DNA from: Qipengyuania proteolytica
GTDB taxonomy: Bacteria > Pseudomonadota > Alphaproteobacteria > Sphingomonadales > Sphingomonadaceae
Length of the DNA: 64,000 bases
Assembly: GCF_019711565.1 (NCBI RefSeq)
Contig: NZ_JAIGNN010000001.1
Location: 1,674,001 to 1,738,000 of the forward strand
Direction of reading: 5' to 3'
The notes under the pieces are model-generated. The model made no database searches. It had not been told where the DNA came from and was given only the letters and a program-made list of their open reading frames with translations. Position 1 is the first letter of the stretch; each line of letters begins with the position of its first letter. This document shows, piece after piece, positions 17,133 to 17,491 of this stretch. The position numbers were made by a program, and so were the translations under genes.

Positions 17133-17188
17133 GCCGCGCGGGTAATGTGCGCAGCGCGCTTTCGCAAGACAGGCGTGCTATCTCGCCC

Positions 17189-17231
17189 AAAATGAGAAGG
17201 GCAGCGCCACCCTTGGGTGATGCTGCCCTTC
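17189..17231 (-). terminator. Long terminator-like hairpin between the 18-codon ORF and ilvE
   Basis: GAAGGGCAGC (17196-17205) pairs perfectly with GCTGCCCTTC (17222-17231), and inside it CACCC pairs with GGGTG around a TT loop, giving an almost continuous 15-pair stem. On the minus strand it is followed by TCATTTT (17195-17189). It would end or attenuate transcripts that start upstream, before they reach ilvE. On the plus strand no T-run follows. Confidence 0.65.
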
Positions 17232-17239
17232 GCATGGTC

Positions 17240-17292
17240 AGCGGCGGGAAGTGCCGCTCACGAAGTCTCTATCGATAGCTGGTTACCGATAG
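17240..17292 (-). ncRNA. Consecutive hairpins downstream of the 18-codon ORF (structured leader RNA candidate)
   Basis: Between the small ORF's stop and the terminator hairpin, AGCGGC/GCCGCT (17240-17245 and 17253-17258) forms a perfect 6-pair hairpin. CTATCG/CGATAG (17269-17274 and 17287-17292) forms another that overlaps the stop codon, and CTATCGATAG (17269-17278) is itself a palindrome, so alternative folds exist. With the hairpin at 17196-17231 this makes three consecutive stems in about 100 bases. It could be a cis-acting leader of ilvE or a separate short transcript. I do not recognise it as a named RNA family. Confidence 0.4.
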
Positions 17293-17339
17293 TACCTCGC
17301 GCGGAAACTTGCCGACCTCTCTGCTGAACCATGAGACAT
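17283..17339 (-). CDS. 18-residue small protein or leader peptide with an extreme Shine-Dalgarno
   Basis: The minus strand reads ATG to TAA as MSHGSAERSASFRARYYR. What supports translation is the sequence before it: AAAGGAGGTGATCC, the full complement of the 16S rRNA tail, set 7 bases from AGGAGG to the ATG. The peptide is rich in Ser and Arg (four each), basic, and ends in Tyr-Tyr-Arg. It lacks the Leu/Ile/Val run expected of a classic ilv leader peptide. Hairpins and a terminator follow. It may be a short expressed protein on its own transcript, or a leader ORF that controls ilvE. I do not recognise the family. Confidence 0.55.
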   Translation of the reverse strand: MSHGSAERSASFRARYYR

Positions 17340-17340
17340 C

Positions 17341-17354
17341 GGATCACCTCCTTT
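17341..17354 (-). promoter_or_regulatory. Maximal Shine-Dalgarno (complete anti-SD complement)
   Basis: On the minus strand this reads AAAGGAGGTGATCC, followed by G and the ATG of the 18-codon ORF. It pairs with the whole 3' end of 16S rRNA, far longer than the 4-6 base sites of the other genes here. Such a site predicts very strong ribosome loading. Confidence 0.75.
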
Positions 17355-17491
17355 CGCGCTAGTGAGCTAGAAGCCCGTTTCACGGGGCCCCAAGACCGCG
17401 TTCGCCGCTGATCTTGATGCTAATTTGTTGCGCGAATCGCTTCATTTCAAGGCTTGAAAAAAAGTTTTCCCACGTCAGAATTGTTAGATGT

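Follow-up and report, generated by a model that had tools for sequence, protein, structure and literature searches.

What does a ribosome-binding site that matches the complete 3' tail of 16S rRNA serve when it stands in front of an ORF of only 18 codons near ilvE? The locus lies in a stretch of 64,000 nucleotides of Qipengyuania proteolytica DNA (the window), on the minus strand, where a complete Shine-Dalgarno (SD) sequence, the 14-nt 16S-tail complement AAAGGAGGTGATCC (17354-17341), is separated by 1 nt from the ATG (17339) of an ORF encoding MSHGSAERSASFRARYYR and ending with TAA (17283-17339). An initial annotation of the sequence had described these two elements, had called the SD one of outstanding strength, and had offered three readings: a highly translated micro-protein, a ribosome-loading RNA, or an attenuation leader of ilvE. 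Both elements were confirmed; exact copies of AAAGGAGGTGATCC occur genome-wide at the RNA locus and at the 3' end of the 16S rRNA gene only, and the window holds a single further match at ≤3 mismatches. A 16S fragment was rejected as an origin of the site, as the match is limited to the last 14 nt and Rfam finds no rRNA at the locus.

The structured, terminated leader that had been annotated was also recovered. The minus strand from 17420 to 17180 has a predicted folding energy of −117.4 kcal/mol (z of −5.95 versus shuffles), and all elements described below lie on this strand. Helix A (17312-17342), predicted from the fold and from class-wide covariation, pairs CCGA (17342-17339) with UCGG (17315-17312), so that the 3' end of the SD is paired downstream and the start region lies mostly inside the loop. 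The family consensus fold and a class-wide pairing test gave helix D, whose 5' arm, CAUGGUUCAG, covers codons 3 to 6 (17324-17333) and whose 3' arm, CUGACCAUG, directly precedes the terminator (17233-17241). A predicted hairpin spans the end of the ORF, including the stop codon (17262-17299; fold and family consensus columns 66 to 72 with 125 to 132), and a second one, AGCGGC-GCCGCU (17240-17258; fold), competes in part with helix D. The terminator search returned an intrinsic-terminator-like last stem (17231-17196) with the tail CTCATTTT, and CTCATTTTGG follows this stem. Upstream of the SD, the fold showed a leader hairpin, AAGAUC...GGUCUU (17390-17416), that is kept across the genus, preceded by a promoter-like stretch (17420-17456) composed of CAAGCCTTG (17456-17448) and AACAAATTAG (17429-17420), for which the putative family form is CTTG-N-GAYTCA. 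The −10 of the window RNA itself deviates from this form. The RNA was found where it had been annotated (17189 to 17355), but the true unit is longer, since the block conserved in the genus alignment extends upstream to about 17479 and takes in the promoter-like element. Within it, the segment TCTGACGTGGGAAAACTTTTTTTCAAG (17453-17479), upstream of the promoter-like stretch, shows strong genus conservation. Several members of the family, L039, L064, and L115 among them, have a CAAG-N-CTTG palindrome (window positions 17448-17456) that overlies the presumed −35 and is a candidate operator.

Conservation was assessed by blastn, pattern search, and a covariance model. By blastn, 35 of the 37 genomes of the genus matched (own genome counted), the two genomes with no match being 75%- and 93%-complete assemblies, and the exact 14-mer was present in all 30 of the genus loci fetched; none of 24 genomes from other families of the same order matched. 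Of 396 genomes from the order, 249 contained the pattern AAAGGAGGTGATCCN{2,9}ATG, and according to the genome table every one of these belongs to the same family; a reversed control pattern gave zero matches. Initially, a covariance search in relatives had been called for; both the ORF and the RNA proved to be kept. The model R1 detected the RNA in 103 of 196 genomes, corresponding to 103 of 113 family genomes and 0 of 83 nonfamily genomes (the 83 counted from the genome table), with some of the genomes searched having been used to build R1. The model was built on alignment A1, comprising 36 of 45 dereplicated family sequences after nine, mostly with long inserts, had been removed by hand. Of the 103 positive family genomes, 88 also carried the exact AAAGGAGGTGATCC..ATG pattern, and 14 of the other 15 were inspected and had mostly small SD variants, e.g., GGAGGTGACC or GGAGGTGGTCC. 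A Caulobacter-like MSHC form was present within the same family in five genomes (G088, G140, G156, G167, and G171). Five family genomes (G061, G166, G188, G199, and G217) each had a second, weak R1 match of 24 to 36 bits. A class-wide pattern search found the motif in 57 of 385 genomes. Because the RNA is conserved across genus and order, a chance origin is excluded.

The position of the RNA next to ilvE could mean that it is a leader acting by classical amino-acid attenuation, as had been proposed, and ilvE was indeed located within 700 nt downstream on the same strand at 85 of 126 family loci. However, ilvE was absent from the stored flank at 33 of the 126 loci (not all of which are independent, with some genomes possibly represented twice), which falls short of the constant linkage expected of an ilv attenuator. 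The genomic place in the family is steady on its other side, with a lipoprotein-like gene upstream within 600 nt at 113 of the 126 loci; in other orders, inspection of mechanical ORFs showed different neighbors among the matches listed. With patterns that were picked after inspecting the sequences, the family-form promoter-like element was found upstream of the RNA in 71 of 143 stretches (versus 1 of 143 when shuffled), and a distinct promoter-like element was found before ilvE itself in 48 of 141 unique downstream stretches (versus 2 when shuffled), which argues against an attenuator. Nor do the codons fit: the window peptide contains no Leu, Ile, or Val, as had been noted at the outset, and peptides of the family contain a single Val or Ile and no run of such codons. 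The RNA is therefore unlikely to be an ilvE leader, given the 33 loci without ilvE, and with the differing neighbors in other orders this candidate was rejected; classical attenuation in particular we hold to be highly improbable. Because it has its own promoter-like element and terminator and because its neighbors change, the RNA would instead be a separate, terminated small RNA of about 160 to 230 nt beside ilvE.

We then considered whether the ORF is kept for its product or for its translation. When the start position was left free in the class-wide search, 56 of 57 matches had ATG (28), GTG (24), or TTG (4), and the start codon sat exactly one base past the 14-mer; TC was fixed in codon 2 in this test, and five of the 57 matches were from the same family as the window. 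The end of the ORF was kept as well. In a family set of 128 unique RNAs, the ORF had exactly 18 codons in 112, ending with TAA in 71, TGA in 29, and TAG in 12, and in a second set all 119 unique family sequences reached a stop at 15 to 21 codons (103 at exactly 18), with the stops in the two other frames being scattered or absent; "unique" in these sets of 119 to 128 refers to strings and not to independent lineages. The family sets used for the ORF, the 3' arm, the alignment, and dN/dS were selected with a pattern that contained the SD plus codons 1 to 4 and, for the source set of A1, the 3' arm of helix D as well, so that the invariance of these parts in the respective sets is built into the selection.

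The peptide behaved differently. In a simple pairwise count without a tree over 74 unique 18-codon ORFs, dN/dS was 1.26 to 1.40 for codons 6 to 18 and 1.07 to 1.17 for codons 10 to 18, at all distance classes, and purifying selection on codons 6 to 18 was thus not seen. Codons 5 and 9 hardly vary and codons 1 to 4 were fixed by the selection of the set, so these values do not counter selection on M-S-H-G-S. A functional micro-protein, with the strong SD serving high output, would accord with the commonness of the M-S-H-G-S start (the 88 of 103 genomes with the exact pattern) and with the mini-ORFs of Azospirillum sp. B21 (L124:6758) and L225, which are lengthened to 59 and 56 codons and have a hydrophobic N-terminal stretch resembling a signal peptide. 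Against it stand, besides the dN/dS above 1, the frame-shifting indels tolerated in L061 and L209, in which a stop is still nearby, and the peptides of other alphaproteobacterial clades, which by eye have little in common past M-S, while the family itself also has MSNG, MSHGL, and MSHC starts. Moreover, the first codons double as an arm of helix D. The micro-protein reading of the initial annotation was rejected on the dN/dS of codons 6 to 18 and the dissimilarity of clade peptides past M-S, and we regard it as unlikely. Apparently, to judge from these comparisons, translation is conserved and the peptide past the first codons is not.

The two long-range helices were examined for covariation across the class. 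In helix A, GAUCC at the 3' end of the SD and the next bases pair with a downstream GGAUC-like element, and the base after GAUCC varies (A, G, U, or C) in step with its partner class-wide; this covariation was seen across the class and not within the genus of the window. The own arm was favored over swapped arms in 38 of 56 RNAs, and 18 showed no gain. For helix D, in which codons 3 onward pair with the stretch before the terminator, the 56 class RNAs were reduced to 40 with a scripted terminator, then to 32 after 8 unreliable ones had been dropped by hand, and to 27 by dereplication. Among 27 dereplicated RNAs, cognate pairing was −8.2 versus −7.1 for swapped arms in helix A and −24.2 versus −17.1 kcal/mol in helix D, and in both cases 0 of 20,000 permutations were as good, in a test that ignores shared base composition and ancestry. 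The cognate partner of helix D ranked first in 9 of the 27 and 15th or lower in three. Using shuffles that keep dinucleotides, the mean z for helix D was −2.05, with P < 0.05 in 15 of 27 RNAs and P of 0.1 for the window's own RNA.

The family alignment gave a partly different picture of the fold. Helix D and the stop-codon hairpin were present in the family consensus fold and helix A was absent; within the SD, the fold instead had a local pairing that does not vary, and its covariation term was small (−1.11). Four predicted family pairs had changed on both sides, three of them in the stop-codon hairpin. As the arms of helix D are near-invariant in the family alignment, partly from row selection, family counts neither prove nor refute this helix; CAUUGU/ACAAUG-like arm forms inside the same family do provide an exchange for it. 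The exact 3' arm was missing from the span searched in 9 of 137 family sequences, two of which end with the contig. In the ensemble modeled for the window's own RNA, taken from the SD on, pairing between the early codons and the 3' arm has a probability of 0.01 because local hairpins compete. Mean modeled openness was 0.49 for SD nucleotides 1 to 9, 0.45 for nucleotides 10 to 14, and 0.67 for the start codon. Helices A and D would have to form a pseudoknot to be present together; otherwise, they alternate. Taken class-wide, the pairing tests suggest that two covarying helices link the docking site and the early codons to downstream sequence. In four Rhodobacterales loci (L073, L105, L111, and L131), AAAGGAGGTGATCCAGTGCATCATG is used, and about 117 to 128 nt past the SD, ahead of the terminator, lies an anti-SD-like CCACCTCC or CCGCCTCC that could keep the SD of these RNAs hidden.

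The RNA was compared with known families. At the gathering threshold, Rfam gave no match at the locus; at a relaxed threshold, the whole RNA aligned to RF01867 (CC2171) with an E value of 2.4e-6 and 36.4 bits, versus a gathering score of 75. Judged by this alignment, the RNA is a distant relative of CC2171, a Caulobacter sRNA; it is a real, well-conserved RNA and a variant that falls outside the limits curated for CC2171. The two share the 5' motif AAAGGAGGUGAUCC-N-RUG-UCU-CAU (present in the window RNA as AAAGGAGGUGAUCC..UGUCUCAU) and the terminator at the end, and the pairing of codons 3 to 5 with the stretch before the terminator in CC2171 may have a counterpart in the window RNA. They differ in the arms, which are CAUGGU/ACCAUG and complementary in the window RNA (the RNA for which the shuffle test of helix D gave P of 0.1) versus CAUUGU/ACAAUG in CC2171, although five same-family genomes carry the CC2171-like arms. 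The available part of the Rfam description presents CC2171 as an sRNA gene and mentions no ORF. Six loci from other alphaproteobacterial orders have the same 5' motif, and five of them matched CC2171 (E ≤ 0.002; 34 to 63 bits), the sixth (L144) having an E value of 0.42, which is not a match.

A second Rfam family shows a similar layout. At least four Streptomyces or related loci from the pattern scan were RF02471 (Ms_IGR-5; 69.6 to 95.2 bits), and Ms_IGR-5 was matched in 27 of 119 Actinobacteria genomes (14 above the cutoff) and in 0 of 14 control genomes; it was not among the 10 covariance matches up to an E value of 10 for window positions 17150-17480. Like the family RNA, Ms_IGR-5 has a complete or near-complete SD, a short ORF, mostly of 12 to 14 codons, with exchangeable start and stop codons, and an SD 3' end that, by eye, seems to be paired downstream. 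Its downstream sequence and spacing (3 to 7 nt) are different, and the likeness is one of layout, for which common descent is at most a possibility. In Actinobacteria, 25 of 32 loci had ATG, GTG, or TTG, with 24 distinct peptides (L252 and L065 denote a single site), ORFs of 12 to 14 codons in all but one, and all three stop codons in use; five of the other seven had, by eye, CTG at the start place, and two had neither. Outside these phyla, contigs of Nitrospinae (L121), an unclassified MAG (L076), and Planctomycetota (L075) carry a similar full SD and a 12- to 14-codon ORF. At the relaxed threshold, L121 had no match and L075 no significant one (E value of 1.7) to CC2171, and neither had a significant match to Ms_IGR-5; L076 was searched at the gathering threshold. 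The contig stretch of L076 that bears the L121-like RNA also contains a group II intron (RF02005; L076:5987-6211).

In the portions of the literature available, Ms_IGR-5 is marked as RNA-seq validated in S. lividans (PMC8079986), and an sRNA transcript of S. avermitilis matches it (PMC8780764). In both M. abscessus and M. smegmatis, its homologs have ribosome-protected reads, but according to the same excerpt most characterized ncRNAs also show a ribosome footprint (PMC4974804), and because of this the footprint support is weak and unspecific. Excerpts of other papers list a CC2171 candidate in a Mesorhizobium survey (PMC5596092), state in 2018 that of the 27 Caulobacter RNAs of 2008 only CrfA had been studied further (PMC5988900), and report that Caulobacter intergenic ncRNAs are mostly not translated, with two former ncRNAs, unnamed in the excerpts, being translated (PMC4117421). 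The literature found under the names CC2171 and Ms_IGR-5 gave, in the portions available, no function for either; judging by the listing, the papers under CC2171 that deal with the RNA are the Rfam 15 paper and the Mesorhizobium survey. None of the papers listed by a sequence search (by title) or by combined-term searches concerned this RNA, nor did the passages searched in other papers on Caulobacter and Corynebacterium. As far as these searches show, two things are new: the layout shared with Ms_IGR-5, and a signature of translation that is kept where the peptide is not.

That both relatives, CC2171 and Ms_IGR-5, are held as sRNAs in Rfam would suit a classical base-pairing sRNA, in which the SD-like stretch pairs with a nonribosomal partner. 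Such an sRNA, however, would have no need for exchangeable ATG, GTG, and TTG at a fixed spacing or for a kept stop codon, and Actinobacteria again have a stretch exactly or nearly complementary to their presumed 16S tail; we consider this reading quite unlikely. It is somewhat less improbable, though still doubtful to us, that translation merely protects or destabilizes an RNA whose real function resides in its 3' half. Most family RNAs have the 3' arm ahead of the terminator, and a ribosome would free it, but this reading leaves unexplained why selection has maintained all 14 nt of the SD if a short site would suffice.

The reading that we prefer, with a probability of roughly 0.5, is a stand-alone ribosome-capturing RNA whose fold would be gated by 30S binding and translation; of the three readings originally offered, the ribosome-loading RNA comes closest to it. 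Free AAAGGAGGU would be the toehold on which the 30S subunit, with its 16S tail, lands. Pairing fully, the 16S tail would displace helix A, and initiation followed by translation of some 18 codons would open helix D and the stop-codon hairpin. Extended SD pairing slows the departure of the ribosome. In doing so, the RNA may capture 30S subunits or act as a sensor of their supply, and the presence of the ribosome would set its fold and hence its stability or its binding of a partner. The first of these steps are suggested by the anatomy of the RNA, whereas the outcome is an inference.

Two known systems resemble parts of this scheme. 6S RNA binds RNA polymerase and is, like the family RNA, a small RNA copying the binding site of a central machine; its target is RNA polymerase, whereas the family RNA would capture the ribosome. 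In the type I toxin mRNAs hok, tisB, and aapA, translation is coupled to folding and the 5' region pairs with the distant 3' region. The family RNA would likewise pair its 5' region with its 3' region but differs in having no conserved hydrophobic toxin peptide and an SD that is not fully hidden. Type I toxin mRNAs of this kind are the subject of two papers (PMC7708055 and PMC6733600).

More tentatively, as a possibility to which we give less weight than to the ribosome-capturing RNA itself, Alphaproteobacteria and Actinobacteria may have in common a wide class of small RNAs directed at the ribosome, which could extend to other phyla given the similar layouts in L121, L076, and L075. Its members would do for translation what 6S RNA does for transcription, with a full anti-16S-tail toehold for the 30S subunit, an ORF that is a timer and not a peptide message, and translation that flips the RNA; CC2171 and Ms_IGR-5 would be two of its branches. 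Two Rfam sRNA families appear to share a full ribosome site and a mini-ORF kept for translation and not for its peptide, and the alphaproteobacterial branch appears to add covarying long-range pairs to the shared design. If so, the ribosome would be either the target or the means of action of such RNAs. A strong SD in front of a short translated ORF is thus no guarantee of a useful peptide.
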